Assembly (NCBI GenBank): GCA_947499255.1
Contig: CANMNF010000001.1
Location: 1 to 64,000 of the forward strand
DNA from: an uncultured Sphingomonadaceae bacterium
Lineage (GTDB): Bacteria > Pseudomonadota > Alphaproteobacteria > Sphingomonadales > Sphingomonadaceae
DNA length: 64,000 nt
Direction of reading: 5' to 3'
In this document: positions 5,896-59,696 of the stretch, one piece after another
Numbering within the stretch: position 1 is the first letter of the stretch
How the letters are laid out: each line of letters opens with the position of its first letter
Translations under genes and position numbers: made by a program
Notes under the pieces: generated by a model
What the model saw: the letters and a program-made list of their open reading frames with translations, nothing else
Told to the model about the DNA's origin: nothing
Databases searched by the model: none

Positions 5896-6048
5896 ATTGG
5901 ACCTCTCATGTTGTTAGAGCGTGTTGTTGGAGCGCAATTGAGCGCCGATCATCAAACGGGTCTGAAGAATCTGCGATCAAACCGTGTTCTAGAACTTACA
6001 CGCAAATCTTTGTTGTGCCATGGGGTAAATCTATTTACCTAAAGGCAC

Positions 6049-6384: not shown

Positions 6385-6425
6385 TCCGCGCCCGAAGGAC
6401 TGCAATTATTTCTAACACCTCATCC

Positions 6426-6863: not shown

Positions 6864-6878
6864 ATCAGGAGACTTTCA

Positions 6879-8850: not shown

Positions 8851-8984
8851 TCGTTTGCGGTTCGTCCAAAAAAGTGCCGCGTTCAGTGAGACAGGTGGCC
8901 GATTGGGTGCGGCGCAATGCGCCTAGCGCAAGGAGTTGCAATCTGGGTTTCTGGCAAATCGGCTGAATGCAAACTACGGTTCAG

Positions 8985-10252: not shown

Positions 10253-10313
10253 GGTATTATTCAACCACACTTAGCGTAAATCGTTGCACGGTTTCGGCAC
10301 AACCCAACAAAGG

Positions 10314-11926: not shown

Positions 11927-12081
11927 ATCGTTCCTCCCTGTCGCAGGCTGGAGAAGGTCACGCAGTAGCGAAACATACCACGAGCGAACAATATAGCCTT
12001 TGTTAGCATTGGAACCTATACCTTCTTAAGATCCTTGGTCCTTTGCTTGGCATATCCCAAACCGAAGTGGAGCGACCGTTC

Positions 12082-17247: not shown

Positions 17248-17367
17248 AAGTCCCCTTCCGCAGTGTGTTGGACACTACAAAAAGGGAACAAACAAACGCT
17301 GCGTTCCAAACCCATCCTTTGTTATGACATCTGGTCGTCTTCGCTCGTGATCGGCTCTATCCCCTCA

Positions 17368-17500
17368 TCACATTTGTTGATTGAGATAATCACTCGCCAA
17401 AGCCTGAACAGGCCGGGTTGTCTTATACCGTTTCTTGTTCAGGCCCTCTTCGATCCATTCAATAGCCTTCAGAGCCGGTGTGTCGGTCAGGTGGTCACTC
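17368..17500 (-). other. Coding-like remnant in the SPS/TonB-receptor intergenic region
   Basis: Within the 374 bases between sps and the TonB receptor, the minus strand has a short open stretch reading ALKAIEWIEEGLNKKRYK and on to a stop at 17368, with codon use that looks protein-coding. I find no start codon in frame, and the frame is closed upstream by a TGA. It may be the tail of a lost gene or a very small gene with an unusual start. Family not recognised. Confidence 0.3.
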
Positions 17501-17563
17501 TGTCATTTGTCGTCGCGAAAGGTTTTGCCTGACATGCGAGCGAAAGCGTGTCGGTAGCGCGGC

Positions 17564-17599
17564 AGCCGGCCAGACCAAATCGCTTTGGTCTGGCCGGCT
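17564..17599. terminator. Strong hairpin terminator after the TonB receptor gene
   Basis: A perfect 16-base-pair inverted repeat (AGCCGGCCAGACCAAA and its complement) encloses a TCGC tetraloop, 23 bases beyond the TonB receptor stop. No long T-run follows on either strand, so it may work with Rho or as an RNA-stabilising 3' end. It is the strongest hairpin I saw in the window. Confidence 0.8.
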
Positions 17600-17621
17600 C
17601 TCACATAGCCATTGGGAAGGA

Positions 17622-43570: not shown

Positions 43571-46147
43571 ATGGGCGAGGCCGTCCGCACAACCTGCGCT
43601 TATTGCGGTGTTGGCTGCGGCATCGTCGCGCGCCATGAAGGCGGGCGCGCTATCACGATTGAGGGCGACAAAGCACACCCGGCCAATCACGGAAAACTGT
43701 GTTCCAAAGGCACCTATCTGGATGAGACGGTGGGGCTGGAGGGGCGCTTGCTGCATCCCATGATCGGCCAGCAAAAGGCCAGTTGGGACGAAGCGCTGGG
43801 CACTGTTGCCCATGCGATGCGCGATTGTATTGAGCGCCATGGACCGGACGCGGTGGCCTTCTATGTCTCAGGCCAATTGCTGACCGAGGATTATTACGTC
43901 GCCAACAAGCTCATGAAAGGCTTTATCGGTAGCGGCAATATCGACACCAATTCAAGGCTTTGCATGGCAAGCGCGGTGGCTGCACAAACCCGCGCCTTTG
44001 GTGAAGATGTGGTGCCGTGCAGCTATGAGGATTTGGAGCGCAGCGATCTCATCCTGCTGGTCGGATCGAACACTGCATGGTGCCACCCGGTCATCTGGCA
44101 ACGCATCGAAGCGGCCCGTGAGGAGCGCGGCACAAAGCTGGTGGTGATCGATCCCCGCCGCACCGAAACCGCAGAGCGCGCGGACCTGCATATCCCCATT
44201 GCAGCCGATGGCGATGTGGCGCTGTTCAACGCCTTGCTGGCAGACATGAAAGCGCGCGGCCAAGTGGATGCAGGCTTTGTGCAGGAGCGCTGCGCGACCC
44301 CGGAAAGCTTTTGGGATGATCTTTCAACCGATCATCAGGTGGATGCGGACGCTTTTGCCGCCTTGACGGATTTGGTCGCTGAAAACCCGCGCATGATCAC
44401 GCTGTTTAGCCAAGGGGCAAACCAATCGACCAGCGGCACTGATAAAGGCAATGCGATCACCAATCTGCACCTTGCCACGGGGCGGATCGGATCACCGGGC
44501 GCAGGGCCGTTCAGCATCACCGGACAGCCCAATGCGATGGGCGGGCGCGAAGTGGGCGGGCTGGCCAATATGCTGGCGTGCCATCTGGGCTTTGCCAAAG
44601 ATGAAGTGGCCGATGTGCGCAGCTTTTGGAATGCGCCTGACATTGCCACGCAGCCGGGTCTCAAAGCGGTGGATATGTTCAAAGCGGTTCACGATGGCCG
44701 CATCAAATTCCTGTGGGTGATGGCGACCAATCCGGCGGTGTCCATGCCGGACGCTGGTTTTGTCCGCGAAGCTTTGGCCAAGTGTCCGATGGTCGTGGTG
44801 TCCGATGTGATGGCCGATACCGATACGGGCGCTTTTGCACAGATCCGCCTGCCTGCTTTGGGCTGGGGTGAGAAGGATGGGACGGTCACCAATTCAGAAC
44901 GCCGCGTCAGCCGCCAGCGCGCTATTCTGCCCGCGCCGGGGGAAGCGCGCGCGGATTGGGATATCATAACCGATGTCGCGCGCCGCCTTGGTCATGGTGA
45001 GGCTTTTGCCTTTACAAACGCTGCCGATATTTTCCGCGAATATGCCGCGATGACCAAGCTTTCCGCTCAGCGCGAAAAGGCGCTTGATCTCACGCCATGG
45101 TCGCATATCAGCGATGCGGAATATGAAGCGCTGGAGCCATTTGTCTGGGGCGGCGACACACCATTTGCGCGCAAATTTTCGCACCCCGATGGCAAAGCCC
45201 GCCTGATCACCACCAAGCCGCCCAAGGCCAAAGCCATCGATCCCGCATTCCCGCTCACGCTCAATACCGGGCGATACCGCGATCAATGGCACACGATGAC
45301 GCGCACGGGATTGAGCGCAAAGCTTTCCACCCACAGGCGCGAACCCTTGCTCGAAGTGCATCCGCGCGACGGGGAAAAAGCCGCGCTTACAGATGGTGGG
45401 CTGGCGCAAGTTCGCACCGCGCATGGGGTGAGCGCATTTCGCGTTCATTTCACCAAGGCGCAGGCGCGGGGCAGTGTTTTTGTCCCCATGCACTGGACGG
45501 ATCAAACCGCTGGCGGCGGGCGTACAGGTGCGCTTGCTCACCCGCTTACCGATCCGGTTTCGGGCCAGCCGGGCTTTAAGAATGTGCCTTGCGCAATCGC
45601 ACCATTGATCCCTGGATGGCGCGGATTTCTGGTGTCGCGCGATCAGGTAAAGCCGCAATGCACCTATTGGACGCAGGCGCGCATTGCCGATGGCTGGCTG
45701 TATGAGCTTGCCGGAGAAGATGAGTACCATGCAACGCAGCTTTTGCCGCGCGGAGAGCGCAGCGAAGTGGCCGATCCAGCGCGCGGAATGCGCCGCATTA
45801 TGGTCTCGGCTGCCAATGGAGAACTGGCCGCTGCGCTCTATCTCACGCGCACAGGCGATTTGCCCGATCGCGATTGGATCACGCGTGAATTTGCGCAAGG
45901 ACAGGCTTCGCAATGTGAGCTTTTGGCAGGCCGCCCATCGACCCCTTTGCCAGAGCGCGGACCCATTGTGTGCGTGTGCAAAGATGTCGGCGAATTCGAA
46001 ATCGCGCGCGCGATTGAAGCGGGCGCAGATACGTTAGACGCAGTGGGCAAAGCGACCTTTGCCGGCACCAATTGCGGGTCTTGCCGCCCGGCTATTACGC
46101 GGTTGCTGAGCCAAGCGGCCGCGCTCTCCAAGGAGGCTGCACAATGA
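43571..46147 (+). CDS. nasA: Assimilatory nitrate reductase, molybdopterin catalytic subunit
   Basis: The 858-residue cytoplasmic enzyme starts with a [4Fe-4S] motif (CAYCGVGCG, Cys 9, 12, 16, and Cys 44 in KLCSKG), followed by molybdo-bis-MGD domains (NTNSRLCMASAVAA, LLVGSNTAWCHPV, the GAGPFSITGQPNAMGGREVGG block) and the C-terminal MGD-binding TGRYRDQWHTMTRTG. At the very end is a BFD-type [2Fe-2S] domain (IVCVCKDVGEFEIARAI ... NCGSCRP), as in NasA of Klebsiella. It reduces nitrate to nitrite. No separate NasC-type diaphorase gene is present, so its electron donor must be encoded elsewhere or be a general ferredoxin/flavodoxin. It overlaps cobA by ATGA. Confidence 0.95.
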   Translation: MGEAVRTTCAYCGVGCGIVARHEGGRAITIEGDKAHPANHGKLCSKGTYLDETVGLEGRLLHPMIGQQKASWDEALGTVAHAMRDCIERHGPDAVAFYVSGQLLTEDYYVANKLMKGFIGSGNIDTNSRLCMASAVAAQTRAFGEDVVPCSYEDLERSDLILLVGSNTAWCHPVIWQRIEAAREERGTKLVVIDPRRTETAERADLHIPIAADGDVALFNALLADMKARGQVDAGFVQERCATPESFWDDLSTDHQVDADAFAALTDLVAENPRMITLFSQGANQSTSGTDKGNAITNLHLATGRIGSPGAGPFSITGQPNAMGGREVGGLANMLACHLGFAKDEVADVRSFWNAPDIATQPGLKAVDMFKAVHDGRIKFLWVMATNPAVSMPDAGFVREALAKCPMVVVSDVMADTDTGAFAQIRLPALGWGEKDGTVTNSERRVSRQRAILPAPGEARADWDIITDVARRLGHGEAFAFTNAADIFREYAAMTKLSAQREKALDLTPWSHISDAEYEALEPFVWGGDTPFARKFSHPDGKARLITTKPPKAKAIDPAFPLTLNTGRYRDQWHTMTRTGLSAKLSTHRREPLLEVHPRDGEKAALTDGGLAQVRTAHGVSAFRVHFTKAQARGSVFVPMHWTDQTAGGGRTGALAHPLTDPVSGQPGFKNVPCAIAPLIPGWRGFLVSRDQVKPQCTYWTQARIADGWLYELAGEDEYHATQLLPRGERSEVADPARGMRRIMVSAANGELAAALYLTRTGDLPDRDWITREFAQGQASQCELLAGRPSTPLPERGPIVCVCKDVGEFEIARAIEAGADTLDAVGKATFAGTNCGSCRPAITRLLSQAAALSKEAAQ

Positions 46148-46929
46148 CATCGCCGCGAACCGTTTTGCCGGGTGAAGTGTGGCTGGTTGGCGCAGGGCCG
46201 GGTGATCCTGAACTCCTGACCCGCAAGGCCGAGCGCTTGATCACCGAGGCAAGCGTGGTCTTTTTCGATGCGCTGGTGGGGGCAGGGGTGCTGGATTTGA
46301 TCCCTGACCATGTTCGCCGCGTCTGTGTGGGCAAACGGGCAGGGCGGCATTCCAAGGATCAACCCTCGATCGACGCGCTGATCGTCCAAGCTGCGCTTTC
46401 CGGAGAGCGTGTTGTGCGCCTGAAAGGCGGTGATCCTGCGATCTTTGGACGTGCTACTGAAGAGATCGAGGCGTGCCGCGATCACGGCATAGCTGTGCGC
46501 ATGTGCCCCGGTGTCACCGCAGCAAGCGCGGCGGCAGCGGACCTTGGCCTGTCGCTGAGTTTGCGCGGTCTTGCGCGCCGTATCACCTTTGTCACTGCAC
46601 ATTTGACCAAAGGCAAAGCGCTGGCGCATGACTGGGCCGATTTGGCCGACCCGCAGGCGACTTTGGCGGTATATATGGGCAAAGCTGCGGCGGGCGAAGT
46701 TTCGCGCGGATTGATCGCAGCGGGGCTGCCCAGTGCAACGCCTGTCGCATTGGTGGAATCGGCCAGTCATGAGAGCGCGCGCCACTTTGTGACCCGGCTC
46801 GATCTGCTGCCATTGGCCGCGCAAACCGCGCTTGGTGATGGACCTGCCTTGATCTTGATTGGTGAGGCCATCGGACGCGCTTCGTCAGAAGAGATTTGCG
46901 AAGCGGAACGCGCCGTTTCAAGCTATTGA
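46144..46929 (+). CDS. cobA: Uroporphyrinogen-III C-methyltransferase
   Basis: The 261-residue protein is a stand-alone SUMT: VWLVGAGPGDPELLTRKAERLI at the start, VVRLKGGDPAIFGRATEE (~98-115) and AVYMGKAAAGEV (~177-188), the SAM-binding methyltransferase motifs. It makes precorrin-2 from uroporphyrinogen III, the first step to siroheme, the cofactor of NirB. CysG-type oxidase/chelatase domains are absent, so those steps depend on another gene. ATG 46144 overlaps the nasA stop and has a strong AAGGAGG site. The 130 bases after it hold no clear feature. Confidence 0.94.
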   Translation: MTSPRTVLPGEVWLVGAGPGDPELLTRKAERLITEASVVFFDALVGAGVLDLIPDHVRRVCVGKRAGRHSKDQPSIDALIVQAALSGERVVRLKGGDPAIFGRATEEIEACRDHGIAVRMCPGVTAASAAAADLGLSLSLRGLARRITFVTAHLTKGKALAHDWADLADPQATLAVYMGKAAAGEVSRGLIAAGLPSATPVALVESASHESARHFVTRLDLLPLAAQTALGDGPALILIGEAIGRASSEEICEAERAVSSY

Positions 46930-47059
46930 AGCCGCCCCATCGAAGTCAGGATACTGATGGCGGCGGGCGAGGGCGCGGCAGCCGATGGCATGGTCAAACT
47001 TCTCAGATTAGGCGCTGTGTGATTGAGCAACCGCGCAAATATGCGCTAGGCCGCACGGT

Positions 47060-47581
47060 ATGACGGTTCTGGGCGCAATCATTGCTGGCGGACAATCCAA
47101 ACGTTTTGGCGCGGATAAGGCGGCGGCGCGTGTCGATGGGCGCGCTTTGATTGAGCACACGCATGAGGCGGTGTCACAGCAGGTTGATGCGGTGGTGATT
47201 TGCGGGCGCGATTGGGCCGGATGGAAGCGGGTTGATGATGCGCCCGCAGCCGGGCTGGGGCCCTTGGGCGGATTGGCAGGCGCGCTGCATTATGCGCAAG
47301 GATACGGCTTCCAATCGGTGTTGAGCCTGCCGGTTGATACCTATCCTTTGCCAAGCGATTTGATCGCGCGTTTGCAGCCAGCACCAGCGGCCTTTGCGCA
47401 GCAATATCTGATCGGTTTGTGGCCCACCGCGCTTGGCCCAAAACTCATCGCGCATCTGGATGCAGGGCACCGTTCCGTGCGATCTTGGATTGAGGCGTGC
47501 GATGCCCGCTTGGTGGATGAGAGCGACTTAAAGCTGCGCAATATCAACAGCCCGCACGATGTTGAAAAAGCGTCAGATTAG
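47060..47581 (+). CDS. mobA: Molybdenum cofactor guanylyltransferase
   Basis: The 173-residue protein has the MobA nucleotide-binding opening AIIAGGQSKRFGADKA and the later LGPLGGLAGAL and LSLPVDTYPLP (metal-binding Asp) motifs. It attaches GMP to molybdopterin to make the MGD cofactor that NasA needs, which explains its place at the end of the nitrate locus. It is a little shorter than E. coli MobA (194). The final TAG overlaps the stop of the convergent kinase gene (47578-47581). Ribosome site is weak. Confidence 0.93.
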   Translation: MTVLGAIIAGGQSKRFGADKAAARVDGRALIEHTHEAVSQQVDAVVICGRDWAGWKRVDDAPAAGLGPLGGLAGALHYAQGYGFQSVLSLPVDTYPLPSDLIARLQPAPAAFAQQYLIGLWPTALGPKLIAHLDAGHRSVRSWIEACDARLVDESDLKLRNINSPHDVEKASD

Positions 47582-49971
47582 CAAGTTCGCGAAATCGATT
47601 CGGCTAACCCTGTCTTGACATAATCGCGGTCATAATCGGACAGCGCATCTTTGGCTTCGATCAGCGCGTAAACATCGCTTGCCTCACGATAATATTTGCA
47701 CGCATCGCTCTTCATTCCGGCAATTTCCGCTACTTCTGCGACAATTAAAACGTTGGACGCATATTCGCGCAGGCGCCCCGGATCATCAGGGCTGAGGGCC
47801 AGTTCCGCGCGCTTGGATGCCTGACTTTGCCGCGCCAATGCCATCGCTTCAGATGCGCGCCCGGCATAAGCCAGGGTGATCGCCTTTTGCTCGCGCACAG
47901 AGGCTAGGTTGCGCACCAGACCTTTGTCCTCTGGATCGCGCGCCGCCATGTCGGAGAAGATCGCCTCCGCCTCATCCAGATCGACAAGCGCGCGCGGTTC
48001 TTCTTCCATCGAATAGAGCAGCAAGGACCGCTTAAACAGCGCCACCGCCATGGAACGCCGCGGTCCTTCGGCCTTTTCGCTCGCGGCGATATAGTCGCGA
48101 TAAGTGGCGATGGAGCGATCTGCATATGTAAGCGCCTGCGTATAATCCTCATTCCCCGCATCCGCCGCGCGGCCCGCCGTTTCCGACAGATTGGACAGCG
48201 TGCGCGCCAGCAAGCCCAGATTATCCGCGCTGCGCCCATATTGCGCCAGATGCGCTTCCATCTTGGCCAGCGTTTGGGCCAACATGGCAACACCTTCATC
48301 ACCGCGCCCGATCCATGCCAGCGGGATTGCGGCTTCTATCTCAGCATCGATGGCCTTTGCGCCATATGTTTGCGCATCAAAATCCTCAGCTAATTCCCAG
48401 TAAAGCGCTGCACTTTTGCCGCCAGCCTCATGGGCCAGTTCATTATCGTCCAGCGCGATGAAGGCGAAGACGGCTTGCGAATAATACGCCTCGGCCAGTC
48501 CGCGTGTGATGGCTTCATCCTGCGGGGCTTGGGTGTGCAATTCTTCCAATTGGGCGATCGCAAGGCCCAGCGTTTCACCCGCTTCATCGCGCCGCCCCAG
48601 ATTGGCCGCGATGGGCGTGCCCAGCACATCGGAAAGCCGCTTATACGCCATCGCCGCTTCCAACCGCACGCCCTGATCCGCGCCTTCACTGCGCGACAGA
48701 GCATCGAGATAAATGCGCGCGCGGTCTGCAATATCGTTGAGCGCTTTGGTGGTGCCGGGCGTATCCTCCAGCTCATCATACAGATCAAACAGCAGGAAAT
48801 TGGACAGCGCGCGCACTTCGTTAAAACGTTGCTCGGCATTGTCGCGCTGCACCGAAGCTTCGCGGTACGCATTGGTGACGAGCAGCAATCCTACCACCAG
48901 GATCAGCGCGGCAAAGCTGGCCAGCGCCACGGGCACAAGATTGCGCTGCACATATTTGCGCAGCCTGTATCCGCGCTCCAGGCTGTAGGCCGCAACGGCA
49001 TATCCATCGCGGTGACGGCGCAGATCATCGGCCAAAACGGCGGCGCTGGGATACCGATCTTCCGGCGCTTCGGCCGCGGCTTTGTCGGCGATGGCTTGCA
49101 ATTCGGGCGCATCGAACGGTTTGATCATGATCGCCAGAATTTTGCCCAGCGAATAGATGTCAGACAGCGTCGTAACCGCTCCGCCAGAGCGGCGTTCGGG
49201 TGCTGCGAAACCGGGCGTTAGGCTGAGGGCGGTTATCGTGCTTTGCGGCTGGGCAGGGCTGTCGCTTTCTTCAAAGCGGGCAATGCCGAAATCAATAAGT
49301 TTGGCCGCGCCTTCACTGGTCACCAGCACATTGCCGGGCGTCAGATCGCGGTGAACAATCAGGTTTTGATGCGCGAACTCCACCGCCGCGCAAATTTGCC
49401 GCATGATCGTGAGGCGCTGCTCCAATGGCGGTTCTTCCTTGGCCAGCCAGCGGCCAAGGGAAATGCCATCGACCAGCTCCATAACGATGAAAGGCGCGCC
49501 ATCGGGCGTTTCCCCACCATCATAAAGCTGCGCGATATGCGGGTGGCGCAGGCCTGCAAGGATTTGACGCTCGCGGCGAAAACGCTCCGCCAACCTATCG
49601 GTGACGATGCCGGGCCGCACCACTTTGATCGCGACCTGATGATCGAAATCGGCATCCGCACGGCTGCCTTTATAGACCGCGCCCATGCCGCCGCGGCCCA
49701 GCAACTCCTCGATCTGAAACGCCCCGATCCGTTCGGGCATGGGCTCATCATCCAGCGTGACTTCGCTAAGCCCTGCTGCGCCGCCTGTTTGCAAGGAGGC
49801 AGAGCTGGCAGTGCTCGCCTCCAGCAAACGCAATGCGCGCGTGCGCACCGCGCGATCAGCTTCGCCAGTCTTGCGGATATAGTCGGCGGGATTGCTTGCG
49901 CCTTGTTCCAGCGCTTCTTCCAGAAGGGCCAGTGCCTGGCGTTCTTCGGCTGCAGAAAGCTGCGCGCTCAC
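47578..49971 (-). CDS. Membrane Ser/Thr protein kinase with TPR-like sensor region
   Basis: The 797-residue protein has an N-terminal helical part, a PknB-type kinase domain (~82-320) with LGRGGMGAVYKG, Lys116 (VAIKVV), Glu in the C-helix, HRDLTPGN (207-214) and DFG (227-229). The catalytic loop has Thr where most Ser/Thr kinases have Lys (HRDLKPxN); such variants occur in active bacterial kinases but the effect here is unknown. One transmembrane helix (~345-366, VPVALASFAALILVVGLLLV) is followed by a long TPR-like helical region (~370-797), probably periplasmic. The GTG start overlaps the sigma-factor stop as GTGA, so the two are coexpressed and likely one signalling pair. Confidence 0.92.
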   Translation of the reverse strand: MSAQLSAAEERQALALLEEALEQGASNPADYIRKTGEADRAVRTRALRLLEASTASSASLQTGGAAGLSEVTLDDEPMPERIGAFQIEELLGRGGMGAVYKGSRADADFDHQVAIKVVRPGIVTDRLAERFRRERQILAGLRHPHIAQLYDGGETPDGAPFIVMELVDGISLGRWLAKEEPPLEQRLTIMRQICAAVEFAHQNLIVHRDLTPGNVLVTSEGAAKLIDFGIARFEESDSPAQPQSTITALSLTPGFAAPERRSGGAVTTLSDIYSLGKILAIMIKPFDAPELQAIADKAAAEAPEDRYPSAAVLADDLRRHRDGYAVAAYSLERGYRLRKYVQRNLVPVALASFAALILVVGLLLVTNAYREASVQRDNAEQRFNEVRALSNFLLFDLYDELEDTPGTTKALNDIADRARIYLDALSRSEGADQGVRLEAAMAYKRLSDVLGTPIAANLGRRDEAGETLGLAIAQLEELHTQAPQDEAITRGLAEAYYSQAVFAFIALDDNELAHEAGGKSAALYWELAEDFDAQTYGAKAIDAEIEAAIPLAWIGRGDEGVAMLAQTLAKMEAHLAQYGRSADNLGLLARTLSNLSETAGRAADAGNEDYTQALTYADRSIATYRDYIAASEKAEGPRRSMAVALFKRSLLLYSMEEEPRALVDLDEAEAIFSDMAARDPEDKGLVRNLASVREQKAITLAYAGRASEAMALARQSQASKRAELALSPDDPGRLREYASNVLIVAEVAEIAGMKSDACKYYREASDVYALIEAKDALSDYDRDYVKTGLAESISRTC

Positions 49972-50516
49972 GTTTGTGTCAGACGGTCCTGCAACCAGGC
50001 GCGCGTAGCTGCCCAGCGCCGTTTGACCGTCGCCTCTGACAGGCCAATCACCACCGCTATGTCTGGTAAAGACATTCCTCCGAAATAGCGCATCTCGACA
50101 ATACGGGCGCGTTCGGGATCAATTTGGGCAAGTTCGGCCATCGCCATATTAAGCGCAATCAGTTCCAATTTCGGCTCAGTATGCGCGATGTCGGTGCATA
50201 AGGTCACCGGATCATGATGCCGTTTCTGACTGTTCTTGCGGCGCACATGATCGAGCAGAACCTGCCGCATAATTGTGGAAGCAAGGGCAAGGATGTGAGC
50301 TTCGCTTTTCCAATCGATACGGTCGAGCCCGGCAAGCCGAATTACCGCTTCATTCACCAGTTCACCGGCGGAAAGCGATGTAGAGCGTTCAGCGGCCAAA
50401 CGGCCCGCAGCAATCTGGCGCAGATCGCTTTCCAAGGCGCGAAACAAGGCGTTGCCCGCATCAGCATCGCCATCGCGCCATTGATTGGCATAGCTCCTTA
50501 GATCGACTGAGCTCAC
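49968..50516 (-). CDS. ECF-type (TIGR02999-like) RNA polymerase sigma factor
   Basis: From GTG 50516 (GGGGGCAGATAAGC upstream) the 182-residue protein has sigma region 2 (~20-90, with LSAGELVNEAVIRLAGLDRIDWKSEAHILALAS and MRQVLLDHVRRKNSQKR) and region 4 (~125-180, ERARIVEMRYFGGMSLPDIAVVIGLSEATVKRRWAATRAWLQ). This matches the TIGR02999 ECF-like group, which is commonly coupled to Ser/Thr kinases rather than to anti-sigma factors, as here. A frame open to GTG 50573 would add nineteen unlikely residues. It diverges from the secreted-protein genes across 182 bases, so these are its likeliest targets. Confidence 0.9.
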   Translation of the reverse strand: MSSVDLRSYANQWRDGDADAGNALFRALESDLRQIAAGRLAAERSTSLSAGELVNEAVIRLAGLDRIDWKSEAHILALASTIMRQVLLDHVRRKNSQKRHHDPVTLCTDIAHTEPKLELIALNMAMAELAQIDPERARIVEMRYFGGMSLPDIAVVIGLSEATVKRRWAATRAWLQDRLTQT

Positions 50517-50661
50517 GCTTATCTGCCCCCAATTCGCGCAACATTTGCATGAACGCAGCGGTTTCACCAGCACTTCTGAAAGTCAAAACCAGATAGCGGC
50601 GAAACTTTCTCAAATCTTTTCTGATCCGCTTTGTCCGCCATTCGCGCCTTGAGCATTAGAC

Positions 50662-50676
50662 CGCCATTTTTTGGCG
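50662..50676 (+). other. Small hairpin in the divergent sigma/secreted-protein region
   Basis: CGCCA and TGGCG form a five-pair stem around five T residues, 23 bases before the start at 50699. It falls in the 5' leader of the plus-strand operon and could influence translation or be a protein-binding palindrome. Confidence 0.35.
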
Positions 50677-50698
50677 AGGCGAATAATAGGGGGCGAAA

Positions 50699-51628
50699 TT
50701 GACACAGGGCGCGCACATAAAATGGCTTGGCAGGATCGCAATCGCAGGCGTGATCGCGGGCGTAATCGCATTGCCGCAAACCGCTTTGGCTGAGGCGCAC
50801 CAGGCGCATAGCGGGGACCTTTCGCAGCAGCTGGCACAGCTGGCGACAGGGGATCAGCTGGTCATCGAAAACGTCACTGGCGAAGTGCAATTTGGCGGTC
50901 ACACCATCGCGCTGGACGCGTTCAGCGGGATCGCGGGATATGGCAGTGAAGTCGCGTATCTCATCACCGTAGATGGCGAAGCTGAATTGAGTGGCGCTGA
51001 ACTGGGGGAAGGCGCGCAGGAAATCGAAGCAGGGCGAGGCCGGATGTTGATGATCCCGCCATTTGGCGCGCAGGCCGGTGTCCAGCGATATGATGCAAGG
51101 CGCCTGCACGAAGCATTGTCTGCGCAGCAGCAGGTAAGCGCGACCTTTACCGTCGCCAGCCTTGGTGATTTGGCCAAGGGGCAGGATCGCGCGATCTTTC
51201 TGGGTAGGCTGGGGCGCACGTCTTTCAATGTCGCCACGATGGGGTCTGCATCGCAGGAAACCGGCCGCCGTGAACGGGTTGGCGGCACGCATGTGCGCGA
51301 TGTCCGTTTTACCAGCGAGGCGGGGGCCGACACGCTTGAACAACGCATCGTCTCACAATTCCTTGCCGCTTTGGCAGCGGGTGAAAGCGCGGCCGTGGCC
51401 CAGATGCTTGATCCGCTGCCTTATGGCATGGGCGCGATGGCGCATGGCGGCGATCAGGCGCGCATTGCGATGGCCAGCAATCTGATTGCCCAGCGCGATT
51501 GGTCCGCCGCCGCCGCCACGCCGCCGCAGCAAGTGGGTGAGACGCTTTGGCGAGCAGGCGATGCGCTGATCAATCTGCGCCGCACAACCGAATTTGCATA
51601 TGTCGAAAGTATCGAGGTGGGGAGTTGA
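50699..51628 (+). CDS. Exported protein of unknown function (FecR-like N-terminus)
   Basis: The 309-residue product opens with a signal peptide (WLGRIAIAGVIAGVIALPQTALAEA). Residues ~45-145 (DQLVIENVTGEVQFGGHTIALD...IEAGRGRMLMIPPFG) have short beta strands reminiscent of FecR-type domains, which are often tied to ECF signalling; the match is weak. The rest (~145-309) is helical and contains TLEQRIVSQFLAALAAG. Start is TTG 50699 with GGGGG upstream; no ATG is nearby in frame. It is the first gene of a three-gene plus-strand set, two bases before the 1366-residue protein, and faces the sigma factor/kinase pair. Confidence 0.7.
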   Translation: MTQGAHIKWLGRIAIAGVIAGVIALPQTALAEAHQAHSGDLSQQLAQLATGDQLVIENVTGEVQFGGHTIALDAFSGIAGYGSEVAYLITVDGEAELSGAELGEGAQEIEAGRGRMLMIPPFGAQAGVQRYDARRLHEALSAQQQVSATFTVASLGDLAKGQDRAIFLGRLGRTSFNVATMGSASQETGRRERVGGTHVRDVRFTSEAGADTLEQRIVSQFLAALAAGESAAVAQMLDPLPYGMGAMAHGGDQARIAMASNLIAQRDWSAAAATPPQQVGETLWRAGDALINLRRTTEFAYVESIEVGS

Positions 51629-51630
51629 TC

Positions 51631-54600
51631 ATGGCTGATATTCGCACAAAATTGCTGTTGGGCGCAGCGGTCGGGGGTCTTGCATTGTTTGGCGTTCCTG
51701 TGGCCGCGCAGGAAACCGCCATCGCTTCGCAAGCGGCAGCCGAGGCCGAGATTGTCCGCGAACAGCAGCGTTATGCCGTGCGCATGATGATGCAAGTGTA
51801 CGATGGCAGCCGCGATTTCTCGCACACACAAATGCTAGGCATTGGCCGTGTGCGCGAAGGTGATCGCAGCTTTACGCAGTTCGATTATGGCGATGGCGCG
51901 GTGGTGATGACCGGCAATAACGGAACACTCGCCGCCAGCAATTTCGTCAATCTGAGTGGTACGGAAAAGGCGATGATCTACGATTATCGCACGAAAATGA
52001 TGTATGGCGATGATGCCATTGCATCGTTTCACAATGGCATCGTTGTCCCCTTGTTGGGCAATGCGCCGGATCTGGGCCAAAATGTGAATTGGTCAGCCAG
52101 TTTGACCCCGCGCGATATCGGCCTTGTGAACACCCCACAATCCGCCGTGGCAGGCGGCATCCAGATTGAGCTGAGCCGTGAATATTTCACCCATAATGGC
52201 ATGGAGATGGTGCTGGTCCGCTATGTCGTGCCGTCCTTCGCCTATACTGACACATCGGGGCGCACGGTTGTGCATTGGGGCACCGGGGTCTCGCTTTCCG
52301 ACCCCGGCTTTGGCATGGTTTACCTCAATTCCGCTCTGCACCGCTCTGTGGCCAGCGATAGCAGCGGGACGGTACCCTATCGCTTTGCCCGCACGGTTGT
52401 CGCGGCCAATCCCGATGGTTCAGCGATGGTGGATTACCGCGATGTCGCGCAATTGGCGCCATATGTTGATGAATTGTTTGGTGCCGATGCGATGCGCGTG
52501 GTGCCAACAGGCACAACGTCCACTCTAACCGCGCCGATTGATCTTGCGCGCACGTTGGACGTTGTGGCGCTGAGTATTGCCGAGGATGGCGGCAATGAAG
52601 CGCCGATGTTGACCAATGCGCAAATGAGCGATGATCGCGGCGCGGAATTCACCGATCCTTCGGCGGCCAACGCCTATATCAACGCCAATGCCAATGCGCA
52701 GAGCAATGCCGCTGGCGCGCGGGCTGCAACGCAAGGGAACGGCCTTGTCTTTGGCGATAACGGTTCGCCTTCGGACAGTGGGCTTGTCGCAGAAGAAACG
52801 GTCGACACGCCGCAAGGCTCATTTTCCACATCGACCGATGCGAGCGCGGAAGAGAATGCGGCAAATCAGGTGCAGAACATGACGCAGCCCGGCAACCGCA
52901 ATGGCAACGGCAGCGGCAGCAGCAATGCCAGCGGTACGGGCGCAAACAGCATGACCGATGGCGGCGGCTTGATCTTTGGCCAGCCGAACGCAAATGATCT
53001 GGCGACCGAGGAAGCGACCCACACTATCCAAAATGGCTCGAACGGCCCTGCTGGCCCGCGTGGCCAAGGCGGGCAGGGCAGCTTTGGTGGCGGACTTGGT
53101 GACGAGGTTTCGCCTGAAACACTTGAATTGTTGGAACAATCTGCTGATAGCGGTGGCGGCCTTCAGGGCAATCTCAACCAGTATACCGACAATACGCAAC
53201 TGTTTGGCGGCGGCGGCGGCGATACCGATAACCCCTATTTCGACGATTACGGGGCGACGGGCCAAGACGGAAGCCTAGCGCAATCGCAATATTGGCTGGA
53301 CAAGGCGATTGCAATTTTTGGCGGCGCAGTGGCCCCGTTGGAACAGATGGCCACCGCTGAGCGCACTGACTTTCTGCTTGACCGCACAACGCAATTGGCT
53401 CGCAGTGGTCAAGCGACGACGAACCAGATCAATCAACTAACCAACGCCATTGAAAATACCGAGAACTGGTTGCGAACGAACGGCGCAGCGGTCCCCATGT
53501 TGACGGGAGAAGCTGCGGAATTGGAACAGGGACTTCGCGCCGCAGCATCGCGTCTTGGCGAAGCAGAGGGTACGTATGAAGCGCTGATCGATGCGCAAGC
53601 GCGCTTTAGTATTAGCGGTGTCACACCGCCTGATAGCTTTATCCAAGCCCTTGATGCTGCTGAAAGCGAAGTAACCGCAGCGCAGGATTTTATGCGCCAA
53701 TCCGAAGGGGCAATGGAAGTTGCCATCCAGAACGGCAAATACATCCTGCAATATGATGTCACTGACCCAGCGACGGCCAACAGGCTTAATCAATTGGGCG
53801 AAGCCTATCGCCGTTTGGGTGAAACGCGCGATACCCTCACTGCGATTGAAACTGAGGCACGTGGATTAAGCGCCTTGGTGCGCAGTTTGCCAACCCAGCA
53901 AATTGCCGACGCTCTTGACCGACTTGGCAATTCGCCCGCTGGCAAACTGCTCGATGGGTTGAGCCACGGGATGAACCTGTATTCAACCGGCAAATCGGCA
54001 TATAATGTCTATAATGCCAGCACGAATGACATGTCCTCGGGCGATCTTGACCTTGTGCGTAGCCATTCTCCGGGTGAATTGGGCCTCGATATTCTGGCGC
54101 TTTTGGGCAATGCCGCATCCGGCAATGTGAAAGCATTTTACAGCGATGCTGTAGCCATTTCTGCAGGTTCCATCAGCGATATCTATGTGGCCAACAAAGC
54201 GTGGAATGACACGATCATTCTCAACCAGCGTTTGAATGAAGAAGTCCTGGCCAACATGCGCGCATTGACGCGCCGGCTTCAAGAACAAGAAAAGGTCAAA
54301 TATGAAGAGCTGATGGCGACCGAATATGGCTCCGTCACTTCTGAACCGACCACCGATGGCGGGGTCAGCGATCCCAATTGGAAAGACCCGCGCATTGACC
54401 CTGAAACGGGCCTGCCCAAGCCTGCCTATTGGGAACATCTCAAGAAAGCCAATCCGGGTAAGCTGATCTCATATGGGATTGATCCTGAAGCGCCGGTTGG
54501 CGGCTGGCCGGGTGGCATTGGGCCAGAGCATCGTCCTGCGCCCAAAGGCCCACCGCCTCCGCCAGCGCAGCTGCCGGAATTCCCCGGCCCGGATTATCCC

Positions 54601-55731
54601 ACCGCGCCTCCGCGTGATCCCAACACGCCGCGCCCGCCCCGCGCACCAGAGCCTACGCTGGAAGAGCAAGGCTTCGTCACCGAAACGCCGGAAGAGCAGT
54701 GGCTGCGCGAAACCCGCGAAGAAAACGCGCGCGCTGCACAAGAGCTGGAGGAATATCAGGCAGAATTGCTCGCCAACCGTGAAGAAGAGACGATCTTCGA
54801 TGGCGATTATGAAATGAATGTGAGCGAGCTTGAGGTAACCGAATTGGTCGTCTCGCAGTTCGAGATAGAGCCGGTTGAATTTGAACCGGTGACCTTCGAT
54901 CCACCGACTTGGGAACCGCCCACTTGGGAGCCGCCTGAATGGGTTCCGCCAGAATTTGATCCGCCTGAAGTTACCAGTTTCCCGCCAACCGATCCTGATG
55001 ATCAGGACGGCTATCCGGGTACAGGTGAGTATCCTGCATACGGGTTCGATAATATGTCCGGCACCGTTAATGTGGACCTGTCGCAGTGGGAAGATTGGCT
55101 GGCGACGCAAGATATTCGCAAGCTGATCCAGCTGGCGATTGCGGCAGGCTATCCATTCGCGCCGGGCGATGATGGCATGGCGACTTTGGCAGTGGCTTTG
55201 GCGGATGCAGAAAACATCATCCGCCTGTCGCAAGATGAAGGCTATCGCCAATGGGCCAATCAGGCGCCAAGCTGTTCAGGGTATGTCGGCTGCGGCCCGC
55301 AATATCTGGGGCGCTGGGCGATGAAGCGCTCTATCGTCGCGCTGGGAGATATTCTGGTGCAAAGCCGCGAAATCTTCTCCACCGGGGGCTTCTCCGACAT
55401 CGGCATTTCAGGCTTCAACCTGTCTTATATGCTGCGCGATTTTGGCATTCAGGATGGCGATCTCATCGATGTGGAGATCACCCAGTTTGGTCGGACCATT
55501 GGCGGTTTGGAGGGGCATTTCCTCACCACGGCTGGCGACAGTTTCAACGTCAATCTACGCCCGGGCGTCGCCTCGGTTGTGGTCACAGCGCTGAACGAAG
55601 GCTCCGCATCGCCCAACACCGCTGAGGTGACCATCGATAATGTGGTGCGCGGCGAAGGCAGGCAGACTTACGACTTAAATACCGGCCAGACCGCGACCTT
55701 GCGGATCGAAGCCAATGCAAGCGCAGAATAG
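51631..55731 (+). CDS. Giant modular secreted protein (1366 aa), unknown family
   Basis: Signal peptide (LLLGAAVGGLALFGVPVAAQ), then a beta-rich N-terminal domain (~30-310; GIGRVREGDRSFTQFDYGDG). Residues ~324-537 are low-complexity Asn/Gly/Ser/Asp linker. Residues ~550-760 are helical, coiled-coil-like. Residues ~775-870 are small-residue-rich and hydrophobic (LGLDILALLGNAASGN, AVAISAGSISDIYVA), possibly membrane-interacting. A Pro-rich linker (~950-1007) and a seven-copy pentapeptide repeat (1080-1114) lead to a C-terminal domain (~1120-1366) with the only two Cys I found (1215, 1221) and a terminal beta region. It resembles no family I know. ATG 51631 has GGGGAG upstream. It precedes an outer-membrane barrel by 22 bases. 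Confidence 0.8.
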   Translation: MADIRTKLLLGAAVGGLALFGVPVAAQETAIASQAAAEAEIVREQQRYAVRMMMQVYDGSRDFSHTQMLGIGRVREGDRSFTQFDYGDGAVVMTGNNGTLAASNFVNLSGTEKAMIYDYRTKMMYGDDAIASFHNGIVVPLLGNAPDLGQNVNWSASLTPRDIGLVNTPQSAVAGGIQIELSREYFTHNGMEMVLVRYVVPSFAYTDTSGRTVVHWGTGVSLSDPGFGMVYLNSALHRSVASDSSGTVPYRFARTVVAANPDGSAMVDYRDVAQLAPYVDELFGADAMRVVPTGTTSTLTAPIDLARTLDVVALSIAEDGGNEAPMLTNAQMSDDRGAEFTDPSAANAYINANANAQSNAAGARAATQGNGLVFGDNGSPSDSGLVAEETVDTPQGSFSTSTDASAEENAANQVQNMTQPGNRNGNGSGSSNASGTGANSMTDGGGLIFGQPNANDLATEEATHTIQNGSNGPAGPRGQGGQGSFGGGLGDEVSPETLELLEQSADSGGGLQGNLNQYTDNTQLFGGGGGDTDNPYFDDYGATGQDGSLAQSQYWLDKAIAIFGGAVAPLEQMATAERTDFLLDRTTQLARSGQATTNQINQLTNAIENTENWLRTNGAAVPMLTGEAAELEQGLRAAASRLGEAEGTYEALIDAQARFSISGVTPPDSFIQALDAAESEVTAAQDFMRQSEGAMEVAIQNGKYILQYDVTDPATANRLNQLGEAYRRLGETRDTLTAIETEARGLSALVRSLPTQQIADALDRLGNSPAGKLLDGLSHGMNLYSTGKSAYNVYNASTNDMSSGDLDLVRSHSPGELGLDILALLGNAASGNVKAFYSDAVAISAGSISDIYVANKAWNDTIILNQRLNEEVLANMRALTRRLQEQEKVKYEELMATEYGSVTSEPTTDGGVSDPNWKDPRIDPETGLPKPAYWEHLKKANPGKLISYGIDPEAPVGGWPGGIGPEHRPAPKGPPPPPAQLPEFPGPDYPTAPPRDPNTPRPPRAPEPTLEEQGFVTETPEEQWLRETREENARAAQELEEYQAELLANREEETIFDGDYEMNVSELEVTELVVSQFEIEPVEFEPVTFDPPTWEPPTWEPPEWVPPEFDPPEVTSFPPTDPDDQDGYPGTGEYPAYGFDNMSGTVNVDLSQWEDWLATQDIRKLIQLAIAAGYPFAPGDDGMATLAVALADAENIIRLSQDEGYRQWANQAPSCSGYVGCGPQYLGRWAMKRSIVALGDILVQSREIFSTGGFSDIGISGFNLSYMLRDFGIQDGDLIDVEITQFGRTIGGLEGHFLTTAGDSFNVNLRPGVASVVVTALNEGSASPNTAEVTIDNVVRGEGRQTYDLNTGQTATLRIEANASAE
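54868..54972 (+). repeat. Seven-copy 15-base coding repeat (pentapeptide E/D-P-P/V-E/T-F/W)
   Basis: Seven consecutive 15-base units encode EPVEF, EPVTF, DPPTW, EPPTW, EPPEW, VPPEF and DPPEV inside the giant secreted protein (residues 1080-1114). The regular aromatic-Pro-Pro spacing suggests a stiff extended rod or a binding surface for Pro-recognising partners. Units differ at the DNA level, so the repeat is old rather than freshly expanded. Confidence 0.9.
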
Positions 55732-55753
55732 ACGCAGGCGGGGGGAAATTATC

Positions 55754-56695
55754 ATGACACGCTTTGGATTTTCTGTGGCACTCATCGGTGCGCTCGCATC
55801 ATCGCCAACAATCGCTTGGGCACAGGTCTTGCCTGATATTCAGGACGCGATCAATCGCGGCTCTGGCATCGATACAGCGCTTGAAGAACAACGCCGCACC
55901 ACTTTGCAACGCAGCGCTGAGGATGAAGGTGCGATCGATGGCGAGGCGGGCGTTTATGTTCTTACTCTCAATGAGATATTCTATGTCGGCGCATCGGCAG
56001 GGGCGGGCTGGTCTGAAAATCCAGTGCGCACCGTCGATGATTTAGGCGATTCTGTTTACGGCAATGCGGCGTTGAGCGCAGGGGTGCAAACCCGGCTGGG
56101 TGAGAGATTTGATGGCGGAATTTCGGCCACCGTTTCAGGCATCGAATTTGATGAACCTTTCGCCCCATCATCACGCTCTGTCACCGCCGCTACCAATATC
56201 GGCATGCCCATTGGCGACACGCCGCTTTATGTCAGCGTGAACGCGTTTGGCGGGTTCAATTACGATCAGGATTTCGAAAACGGCACCGGCTTTTACGGCG
56301 CCAGCCTGGCACTCAGCGCTGGCATCCCTGTGGGCCAGAGCACAGTTTTGCGTGGCAGCGTGAATGCAGGCCGTCAGGAGGGCGAGATCGAGGAAAACAA
56401 TGCGTGGAACGCCAATGTCTCGTTCGATCTCACCCATTACGTCTCCCCAAGTATCAGCATCGGGGCTGGCGCTGCGGTGAGCCGTGTATGGTTTGACGAT
56501 TTTTACGAAGACGTCACTTTCGTCACTCGCCGCGATTGGCAATATGGCGGCAATATCAACGCCAGCTGGCAAGCGACCGATTGGCTCTCTGTCAGTACAA
56601 ACGCTGGATATCAACGCCGCGATTCTGCCTTCTTCCTGTCCGATTATGATGGCTTTGATGCCAGCATCACAGTGGCCGCGCGCAAGCGGTTTTGA
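55754..56695 (+). CDS. Outer-membrane beta-barrel protein
   Basis: The 313-residue protein has a signal peptide (VALIGALASSPTIAWAQ), a short N-terminal helical piece (LPDIQDAINRGSGIDTALEEQ) and then about 12-14 amphipathic strands (VGASAGAGW, NAALSAGVQTRLG, GGISATVSGIEF and so on), ending in ITVAARKRF with the C-terminal Phe that directs barrel insertion. ATG 55754 has GGGGGAAA upstream. As third gene of the set it may anchor the giant secreted protein at the outer membrane or act as its exporter; its N-terminal piece resembles the plug-like segment of surface-polysaccharide barrels. This role is inferred. Confidence 0.85.
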   Translation: MTRFGFSVALIGALASSPTIAWAQVLPDIQDAINRGSGIDTALEEQRRTTLQRSAEDEGAIDGEAGVYVLTLNEIFYVGASAGAGWSENPVRTVDDLGDSVYGNAALSAGVQTRLGERFDGGISATVSGIEFDEPFAPSSRSVTAATNIGMPIGDTPLYVSVNAFGGFNYDQDFENGTGFYGASLALSAGIPVGQSTVLRGSVNAGRQEGEIEENNAWNANVSFDLTHYVSPSISIGAGAAVSRVWFDDFYEDVTFVTRRDWQYGGNINASWQATDWLSVSTNAGYQRRDSAFFLSDYDGFDASITVAARKRF

Positions 56696-56793
56696 TGGTC
56701 AGGCTGCAATCACTCTAGAAAATCCGCAACATTGTGGCAAAGATCACCCCTTGCATATTTGATCGCGAATATGGGTGAGGGATAACAGGCGGC

Positions 56794-58233
56794 ATGTATT
56801 TGGGAATTGATCTTGGCACTTCGGGTGTGAAGGCCATTATCATCGACGACGCAGGCCGTGTGGCGGGGCAGGGGACTGCCGGGCTTAAGGTATCGCGCCC
56901 GCATCCGCTTTGGTCAGAGCAATCGCCTCAAGATTGGTGGCAGGCGACCGGCGATGCGGTGAAAGCGATCGCGCCCGATTTGCGCGCAAAGATCACCGGG
57001 ATTGGCATTGCAGGCCAGATGCACGGAGCCACTTTGCTGGGCGCAGATGATGCGGTTTTGCGCCCTGCAATCTTGTGGAACGATGGCCGCTGCGAAGCGG
57101 AATGTGCCGCGTTGGAGAAGACTGTGCCAGATAGCCGCGCGATTACTGGCAATCTGGCCATGCCCGGATTTACCGCGCCCAAACTGGAATGGGTGCGGGG
57201 GCATGAACCGGAAATTTTCGCCAAAGTTCGCAGCGTTCTTTTACCCAAGGATTACCTGCGCTTACGCATGACAGGTGAGAAAGCATCTGACATGTCAGAT
57301 AGCGCGGGCACATTTTGGCTGGATGTGGCCAAGCGCGACTGGTCCGATGCGATGTTGGAGGCAACGGGCCTCACCCGCGATCATATGCCGCGCCTTGTCG
57401 AAGGACCGGAAATTACCGGCACATTGCGCAGCGACATTGCCAATGATTGGGGCATGGGCAAAGTGCCGGTTATTGCTGGTGGCGGAGACAATGCAGCCGG
57501 CGCTGCTGGCGTTGGCATGATGGCCGAAGGGGATGCGCTATTGTCGCTTGGCACGTCAGGCGTAATCTTTGTGGCCACCAAACAATTCCGCCCCAATCCC
57601 GGCGGCGCAGTTCATGCCTTTTGCCATTGCCTGCCCGATACGTGGCATCAGATGAGCGTGCACCTATCGGCCGCCAGCTGCGCGGATTGGGCGGCCAATA
57701 TCATGGGGTTGGATGTGGCGGATTTCTTCGCCAAAGCAGAGCAGGGCGAGCCCGGCGACGGGCCAGAATTGTTCCTGCCGTATCTTTCGGGTGAACGCAC
57801 CCCGCATAACGATCCCACGCCGCGCGGCAGCTTTCTCAATATGAGCCATGCCAGCGATCCAACCCGCCTTGCCAACGCCGTTTTGGAAGGCGTGGCATTT
57901 GCCCATGCCGATGGGCTGCGCGCGTTGCAGGAAACGGGCACAACAATTTCAGCGCTTACCGTAATTGGTGGCGGCGCGCGCTCTGCCCATTGGGGACAGA
58001 TCCTGGCCGCCGCGCTCGACGTGCGCCTTGATTACCGTGAAGGCGGCGAAGTTGGCCCGGCTTTGGGCGCAGCGCGCCTCGCCATGATGGGCGTTAGCGG
58101 GGTGAGCGCTGCCGATGCCTGTCCCAAACCGCCATTGACCCACGCAATTGAACCCGATCCTGAATTGACCGACCGACTATCATCCAAATATGCTCAATTT
58201 CGCGCCGCCTATCCCTCGCTTGCGCAAATCTGA
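56794..58233 (+). CDS. xylB: Xylulokinase
   Basis: The 479-residue protein is a FGGY-family kinase: [17 protein letters not shown] (phosphate-binding start), [22 protein letters not shown] (xylulokinase hallmark), LWNDGR, and [21 protein letters not shown] in the FGGY signature region. It phosphorylates D-xylulose to xylulose-5-phosphate for the pentose phosphate pathway. xylA follows 16 bases later, giving the isomerase route for xylose. No xylose transporter or XylR-type regulator is visible nearby. Confidence 0.96.
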
Positions 58234-58249
58234 AGGAAGATCAGACACC

Positions 58250-59557
58250 ATGTCCGCAGACTATTTCGCTGAATTTGAAACCGTCCGTTTTGATCCCGAA
58301 GGCGGCGATCTTGCGTATAAATTCTATGACAAGGACCGCATGGTTCTGGGCAAAAGGATGGAAGATCATCTGCGCTTTGCCGTGTGTTTCTGGCACACTT
58401 TCTGCTGGCCGGGCAGCGATGTGTTCGGGGCAGGCACATTTGATCGGCCATGGCTTGCCGGTCCCAATGATGCAGTCGCGGCCAAGGCCAAGCGTGAAGC
58501 GGGGCTGGCGTTCGTTGAGAAAATGGATGTACCGTTTTACTGCTTTCACGATGTTGATGTGATGGCCGATGCCAAGGATGCTGGCGATTTCCGCGCCAGC
58601 TTTGCCGAAGCGGTTGATCATCTGGAAGAATTGCAGGCCAAGCATCATCGCAAGCTTTTGTGGGGCACGGCCAATCTGTTCAGCCACCCGCGTTATATGG
58701 CCGGGGCGGCGACCAATCCTGATCCTGAAGTTTTCGCATGGGGCGCAATGCAGGTGCGCGATTGCCTGGATGCAACGCACCGGCTGGGCGGCCAGAATTA
58801 TGTGCTGTGGGGAGGGCGCGAAGGTTATGACACGATCCTCAACACCGAATTGGCAACCGAGCAGGACAATTTTGGCCGGTTCTTGTCCCTCGTGGTGGAA
58901 CACAAACACACAATCGGTTTCAAAGGCGCGATTTTAATCGAGCCCAAACCGCATGAGCCGACCAAGCATCAATATGATTTCGATACGCAAACGGTTTACG
59001 CTTTCCTGAAGCGTTATGGCCTTGAGAAAGAAGTGCAGGTCAATATCGAGGCGAACCACGCCACACTTGGCGGGCACAGCTTTGAACATGAATTGGCGAT
59101 GGCGCGTGCTTTGGGCATTTTCGGCTCTGTCGATGCCAATCGCGGCGATCCGCAAAATGGGTGGGACACCGATCAATTCCCCAATTCGGCTGAGGAAATG
59201 ACGTTGGCAATGCTGGAAATCCTGCGCGCAGGTGGTTTCACCACAGGCGGGTTCAACTTTGACAGCAAAGTGCGCCGTCAATCCATTGATGCCGCCGATC
59301 TGTTCCACGGGCATATTGGCGGGATCGATACGATCGCGAAAGGCTTGCTCAATGCCGCTGCGCTGATCGAAGATGGTCGTCTCGATGCGTTCCGCGAAGA
59401 ACGCTATGCCGGATGGAAAGGTGAGCTGGGCGAGATGATCTATGCCGAGGGCACCAGCCTTGCCGATATCGCGCAACATGCGATCGATGCCAATGCCGGG
59501 CCAGAGCCGAAATCGGGCAAGCAGGAATGGTGTGAAAACCTGATCAACCGGGTTTAG
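58250..59557 (+). CDS. xylA: Xylose isomerase
   Basis: The 435-residue protein is of the class II (E. coli-like) length. It shows [14 protein letters not shown] near the start, FCFHDVDV-like [14 protein letters not shown] (catalytic His/Asp), the [15 protein letters not shown] motif (metal-binding Glu region follows in [20 protein letters not shown]), [19 protein letters not shown] and [18 protein letters not shown]. These provide the two divalent metal sites of the TIM barrel. It isomerises D-xylose to D-xylulose. GAAGGAAGA precedes the ATG. The 139-base gap to the convergent gene (59558-59696) shows only a short GGGC/GCCC hairpin. Confidence 0.97.
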
Positions 59558-59696
59558 GCACGAGAACCTTTCCTACAGGCGCAAAACTTGGGCAAAGGCC
59601 CTTCCGGCTCTTTGGCACAGGCCAATTGGGCGTCTTTACGAAAGAGAGGTTTTCGTCTTCTAGACTGTGTCCAATGTGTCCATTTTGTTGGATTTG

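Follow-up and report, generated by a model that had tools for sequence, protein, structure and literature searches.

Kinase-linked sigma factors of the extracytoplasmic function (ECF) type are already known (PMC13147305; PMC8999054). PMC8999054 names three worked examples of kinase-activated ECF43 sigma factors, those of Xanthomonas citri, Vibrio parahaemolyticus and Hyphomonas neptunium, and PMC13147305 reports that the PknS-EcfK pair of X. citri activates type VI secretion system (T6SS) genes. According to the latter, EcfP and EcfK are phosphorylated on a threonine of region sigma2.2, this threonine is found in 88% of the ECF43 members and an adjoining acidic residue in 15.8%, and T106 in the linker of EcfK is a second site, whose loss matters together with that of T51 (PMC13147305).

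We analysed a stretch of 64,000 nucleotides from an uncultured Sphingomonadaceae bacterium (the window; positions 1 to 64,000 of contig CANMNF010000001.1, assembly GCA_947499255.1), in which the genes of a sigma factor and a kinase diverge from three genes for exported proteins. As in the PknS-EcfK system and the PknT-EcfP system of V. parahaemolyticus, a Hanks-type transmembrane kinase adjoins an ECF sigma factor and the pair stands beside the genes that it probably controls. The targets of those two systems are T6SS or polymyxin resistance genes, whereas the targets in the window would be an uncharacterised operon of exported proteins. We think it likely that the five genes form one signalling-and-effector cassette, in which the kinase would act on the sigma factor, the sigma factor on a dyad promoter and this promoter on the expression of the three exported proteins. 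The demonstrated basis is the co-occurrence of the genes, their rearranged layouts, a conserved promoter-like dyad and the families of the sigma factor and the kinase. No description of the five-gene cassette, of the family of its giant protein or of its promoter was found in the open-licence literature searched with general terms.

Conservation and distribution of the five-gene cassette

The genes of the kinase (797 aa; positions 47578 to 49971, minus strand) and of the sigma factor (182 aa, GTG start; 49968 to 50516, minus strand) overlap by the bases GTGA. They diverge from the plus-strand genes of an exported protein of 309 aa (P0001, TTG start; 50699 to 51628), a giant exported protein of 1366 aa (P0002; 51631 to 55731) and an outer-membrane beta-barrel of 313 aa (55754 to 56695), which are spaced by 2 and 22 bases. 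The gene order, the overlap and both spacings agreed with an earlier annotation made from the letters of the window (the sequence-only reading). Its assignment of the sigma factor to TIGR02999 was also upheld, with a score of 162.9 bits against the curated cut-off of 126.15 bits. It had further given signal peptides to all three plus-strand proteins; their N-termini read so, but the hydropathy peak was over the threshold only for the 309-aa protein and the giant.

Homologues were searched for in sets of 149 genomes of the family, 396 of the order and 385 of the class, and the loci were detected through searches with the giant or the barrel. A single-sequence query with the giant against the genome contigs gave no match, and an alignment-based scan gave six loci. 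The five genes, on whose joint conservation the sequence-only reading depended, were found together in seven of seven intact loci: the window, L008 (genome G132), L020 (Qipengyuania mesophila, also L025), L021 (an Emcibacteraceae metagenome-assembled genome, or MAG, also L026), L024 (an uncultured Sphingomonadaceae), L027 (Aquisalinus flavus) and L028 (a Hyphomonadaceae MAG). Locus L029 (positions 5864 to 11590, from an Altererythrobacter xiamenensis MAG) was excluded from this count as it holds only fragments of the kinase and of the giant, through decay or an assembly error. Four layouts were observed among the intact loci. The sigma-kinase pair and the operon are divergent in the window and L028, the operon is followed by a convergent kinase-sigma pair in L008 and L020, in L021 and L027 the kinase diverges from a sigma factor placed ahead of the operon, and all five genes are co-directional in L024. 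Linkage that is kept through four layouts is stronger evidence for a unit than a fixed order would be, and the four layouts argue against mere recent descent. A sigma factor over the TIGR02999 cut-off was present in the seven cassettes and in genome G150, and a Hanks-type kinase gene adjoins it in the window, the six other cassettes and G150.

The cassette is rare and patchy. The giant profile matched five of the 149 family genomes at E<=0.001, namely that of the window, G132 and three with weak partial matches, and in the 385 class genomes it matched only the window and one other, again weakly and in part. Eight of the 396 order genomes matched the barrel profile, which was near full length in five of them (G000, which is the genome of the window, G132, G272, G219 and G150); none of the 13 same-genus genomes listed in this order search matched. 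All five genomes with a near-full-length barrel also have a homologue of the 309-aa protein and a TIGR02999 sigma factor. In turn, a TIGR02999 sigma factor over the cut-off was found in five of 99 order genomes, of which G000, G219 and G150 carry a homologue of the 309-aa protein and G079 and G197 gave no match. Profile searches against 5.8 billion proteins, with about 8000 candidates scored per profile, returned 14 proteins for the giant including itself, that is, 13 other homologues at the sensitivity of that tool, and 20 for the 309-aa protein including the window's own. The G+C content of the cassette (58.0%) is near that of its left (58.2%) and right (57.0%) surroundings, and there is thus no compositional sign of recent transfer. 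In a same-genus comparison for an empty site, which covered stretches of 3.5 kb at 6 of 20 MobA loci, no xylB was seen.

A promoter-like dyad in front of the operon

A shared dyad, TGANCC-N17-CGC, was derived from the 200-bp stretches that precede the 309-aa gene at the seven loci. In the window it is part of a promoter-like element, TGATCCGCTTT-N12-CGCCTT (in full TGATCCGCTTTGTCCGCCATTCGCGCCTT), located at positions 50622 to 50650 of the plus strand, 77 nt upstream of the 309-aa gene. The dyad was present in seven of seven upstream stretches at a distance of 61 to 90 nt from the start used, and in 300 dinucleotide-preserving shuffles a dyad of that form was never found in more than four of the seven. 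For L024 the start was placed at position 3851, where there is no start codon; as the closest one in frame lies upstream at 3845, the stretch takes in six coding bases. For L028, position 8955 was chosen from several possible starts.

Genome G150 was read after the derivation. Its 6.8 kb contig, scanned on both strands, showed one dyad match, which precedes the mechanically assigned start of the 309-aa gene by 46 nt. The dyad is found upstream of the operon in eight of eight genomes, including G150, whose sigma-kinase pair lies elsewhere. It was found within 250 bp upstream of none of the 11 sigma factor or kinase genes tested, the kinase of a second system described below aside. Among 116 mechanical open reading frames (ORFs) from nine stretches, seven have the dyad within 200 bp upstream: five 309-aa genes, L020:868 and L028:13336. 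The 309-aa gene copies of L020, L027 and L028 are outside this count, being displaced by a longer overlapping ORF or having a start that lies before the dyad. The ORF at L028:13336 stands directly after the barrel gene with the dyad 34 nt upstream, possibly by chance. In the stretches scanned, a slightly stricter form of the dyad had three chance matches in L061 and a single one in each of L022 and L023, not counting the site in the gap of the second system.

The kinase and a candidate activation site of the sigma factor

The description of the kinase as a transmembrane Ser/Thr kinase was borne out by a match to PF00069 (E 2.7e-37), in which the G-loop, VAIK, HRD and DFG motifs are all intact, and by a single hydrophobic segment at residues 348 to 366, placed by hydropathy. 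The kinase domain (about residues 85 to 283) is read as cytoplasmic, and about 430 residues lie beyond the transmembrane segment. The TPR-like character attributed to this outer region was not recovered, as no Pfam TPR match was obtained at E<=1 (P0004). Residues 7 to 279 align to the solved kinase 9eed, a 364-residue 'kinase domain protein' which we infer to be PknS 1-364. PADLOC matched only the kinase.

Alignment of 11 sigma factors showed that the sigma2.2 motif of the window's sigma factor is S-A-G-E (residues 49 to 52; positions 50361 to 50372, minus strand), with a glycine at the place of the ECF43 phospho-Thr and then a glutamate. The corresponding motifs are STND, STHE, ATGD and three times STGD in the other cassettes, and STGD in G150. 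The phospho-Thr of the ECF43 motifs QTTA, QATE and STTA is thus replaced by G, N or H in the sigma factors of all eight genomes that have the operon, and the fourth residue is D or E. The two TIGR02999 sigma factors from genomes free of the operon both keep the threonine (QATE in G079 and TATA in G197). Since the sigma2.2 phospho-Thr is missing, direct phosphorylation of the cassette sigma factors, if any, would probably take place at another site.

The linker between sigma2 and sigma4 carries a V[TE]xxT motif whose last threonine, Thr108 in the window (positions 50193 to 50195, minus strand), is kept in eight of eight sigma factors of the operon-bearing genomes. It is also present in the second system and is absent in G079 and G197. 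Judging from this alignment, Thr108 (or Thr105) is probably the best candidate phosphosite, and either of them may be the counterpart of T106 of EcfK; control would then have moved off the sigma2.2 threonine. The claim of the sequence-only reading that the sigma factor switches on the plus-strand operon was supported by the shared dyad in front of the operon, which it predicts. That reading also proposed that the kinase may sense the state of the envelope and that the three exported proteins may build a surface structure or a secretion device. In this compact case, the promoter has a candidate, the target operon is defined and the activation site varies naturally, which makes it directly testable which phosphosite matters in ECF43.

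The exported proteins

The giant has no Pfam or NCBIfam match over the cut-offs. Its conservation profile showed a conserved N-domain (about residues 45 to 345; positions 51763 to 52665, plus strand), which also appears in the model of a shorter relative, P0017, a variable middle and a conserved C-domain (about residues 1060 to 1366; 54808 to 55728, plus strand), which is the best conserved part. At E<=0.5, 18 members of the giant family gave scattered weak Pfam matches (25 of 26 families listed), and so did 23 members of the 309-aa family; each of these weak matches occurred in one member, and once in two. Pentapeptide repeats had been proposed for the giant. No pentapeptide-repeat Pfam match was obtained for P0002 at E<=1, and the repeat is instead a Pro-rich tandem of the form [F/W]xPPx at residues 1084 to 1113 (positions 54880 to 54969, plus strand). 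In P0017 this repeat is replaced by a run of FKNPE. Matches of the giant's middle to the PDB were to helical-bundle or coiled-coil chains (best E 4.4e-4, to a designed bundle, among the 60 of 102 shown) and were set aside as compositional. In L003, from genome G074, which is one of the three family genomes with weak partial matches, a 484-residue open frame matches residues 9 to 140 of the giant weakly (E 9.9e-5, 35% identity); it may be a relative of the N-domain that occurs by itself.

No Pfam or NCBIfam match was obtained for the 309-aa protein at E<=1. Its best Foldseek matches were the PupR signalling domain and BDI_1681, with probabilities of 0.99 to 1.00 but with weak E-values (6e-3 to 1e-2, none under 0.001) and low TM-scores. 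A FecR-like beta domain would cover about residues 50 to 130. A putative NTF2-like domain covers about residues 211 to 309. The FecR-like description therefore stood as a fold match and not as a profile match, since Pfam FecR was not among the families matched at E<=0.5 by the 23 homologues. By these weak fold matches, the 309-aa protein may resemble the periplasmic anti-sigma regulators of the FecR and PupR type. It differs from them in having a signal peptide and not a cytoplasmic anti-sigma domain, in its extra putative NTF2-like domain and in the position of its operon, which is probably under the sigma factor and not over it. The giant and this FecR/NTF2-like partner bring to light two protein families whose window members are without Pfam or NCBIfam matches over the cut-offs.

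The barrel appears to be BBP2_2/EpsL-like. The window copy is below the Pfam and NCBIfam cut-offs; BBP2_2 is not listed for it, and its match to EpsL is weak (18.7 bits against a cut-off of 275). Its orthologue in L024 scored 26.5 bits with BBP2_2, over the cut-off of 23.7, and that of L028 scored 21.9 bits. A C-terminal Phe is present in all eight barrel copies read, the window copy among them. Unlike in EpsL-like systems, no exopolysaccharide genes were seen beside the barrel in positions 45000 to 60000 of the window.

A second sigma factor-kinase pair in the genome of the window

A second TIGR02999-like sigma factor and its kinase are located on contig C3 of the same genome (L023, positions 8901 to 17688). 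This sigma factor scored 121.5 bits, just under the cut-off, and its sigma2.2 motif is EPED. The pair diverges from the gene of an autotransporter-domain protein (PF03797, E 7e-25) that is about 1850 residues long, and the gap between them carries the dyad TGANCC-N17-CGC on both strands, facing the kinase and the autotransporter. The kinase of this second system has a TPR-S match at residues 285 to 323 that is below the cut-off (17.8 bits against 27.6).

Proposed function of the cassette and alternatives

In the proposed cassette, an extracytoplasmic signal would reach the outer part of the kinase, which would span the inner membrane, and the kinase would activate its partner TIGR02999 sigma factor, perhaps at the linker threonine. 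The sigma factor would then bind the TGANCC-N17-CGC promoter and direct RNA polymerase to it, a transcription step that is suggested by the linkage and by the conservation of the promoter. The operon would yield a soluble FecR-like/NTF2-like exported protein, the giant and the outer-membrane barrel. The giant would most likely be a large protein of the envelope or the surface, which the barrel would help to anchor or display. A fuller picture, which we offer tentatively and hold to be rather doubtful as a whole, would be that of an alphaproteobacterial envelope module. Its kinase-linked sigma factor would have a replaced phospho-Thr, a built-in acidic residue and control through the linker (Thr108 or Thr105), so that the kinase would gate RNA polymerase through another contact. 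Its main promoter would serve a giant exported protein of a new kind, one end of which would be a barrel of the lipid-transfer type and the other a conserved beta-domain. This giant would work with an outer-membrane barrel of its own and with the soluble FecR-NTF2 protein.

Several points weigh against a single cassette under the control of this pair. Since it was searches with the giant or the barrel that led to the loci, the seven of seven means that the giant has the other four genes and not the reverse. The genomic context could be tied to these loci for two of the 13 giant homologues (P0006, and P0014 by name and sequence), and the conservation could in part reflect block transfer of the cassette. 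In the fragmented assembly of G150, the 309-aa gene and the start of the giant are on contig C125, downstream of a gene read as phosphoribosyl-pyrophosphate-synthase-like, and the end of the giant and the barrel are on C367; the sigma-kinase pair is on C14 among other genes, apart from the operon. The published ECF43 activation route is not transferable unchanged because the phospho-Thr is absent. As for the promoter, the motif by itself is not enough to define a regulon, and the dyad is assigned to this sigma factor by association. A stricter pattern, itself derived from these sites, fits positions 50622 to 50650 of the window exactly and does not fit the L028 site. Elsewhere in the window it has one exact match and one with two mismatches, where 0.50 matches on average would be expected by chance when up to two mismatches are allowed. 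The further exact match (positions 44663 to 44691, minus strand) falls within a large ORF read as nitrate-reductase-like (43571 to 46147) and is taken as chance. At up to one mismatch, seven genomes contain 95 sites of the stricter pattern and 78 of its reversed control, which gives no sign of a large regulon, and with no mismatch it occurs at 11 places, six of which are the operon sites used to make it.

The dyad might belong to another regulator, such as the general stress sigma factor EcfG, and the linked pair control something else. The resemblance of ECF-type promoters to each other and the lack of a dyad upstream of the sigma-kinase pair itself are consistent with this. We nevertheless consider it unlikely, as the -35 element of EcfG is GGAAC and differs from the TGANCC of the dyad, the dyad shows no clear genome-wide enrichment of the kind expected of a general stress promoter, and it is also found beside the second TIGR02999-like pair.

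If the operon is under the linked pair, the nature of its products can be read in several ways. The giant could be an adhesin-like or predator-facing surface protein with an exposed and diversifying middle, and this is a serious possibility to which we give somewhat less than an even chance. Its conserved ends and hypervariable modular middle, the autotransporter faced by the second kinase-sigma pair and the control by EcfK of a T6SS directed against amoebae all speak for such a protein, while no known adhesin domain was found over the Pfam and NCBIfam cut-offs. The three exported proteins could instead be an envelope device for handling lipids or lipoproteins, in which the N-domain of the giant would pass hydrophobic cargo to or through the barrel and which the kinase-sigma pair would induce under envelope stress. 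As we read the strand order and the fold matches, the model of the N-domain of P0017 is a large barrel of antiparallel beta strands with a helix inside, and its fold may resemble the barrels of large lipid transfer proteins (lipovitellin, ApoB and MTP). However, no sequence match to these proteins was found and porins scored nearly as high in a second fold comparison; a LolA relationship of the giant N-domain was not supported by the profile comparison (hhalign, 0.8%). We regard a lipid-handling device as improbable. A toxin or a polymorphic effector that brings its own means of delivery is the least probable of these readings, and we judge it very unlikely. A sub-threshold eCIS_core match at residues 342 to 387 (E 0.004; 17.7 bits, the cut-off being 22) and what we read as a hydrophobic stretch ahead of the C-terminal part would fit a toxin, but eCIS_core was found in one of 18 members only and the conserved gene set is without an immunity-like gene. 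Moreover, conservation in the giant is highest at the C-terminus, the opposite of what is usual in polymorphic toxins.

A phosphoesterase gene in the Emcibacteraceae cassette

In the Emcibacteraceae cassette, a gene located between the sigma factor and the operon (L021, positions 14629 to 15330, plus strand) encodes a calcineurin-like phosphoesterase (PF00149, E 8.6e-18). No phosphatase like it was found in the 10 other stretches compared. This phosphoesterase is a candidate counter-enzyme to the kinase.

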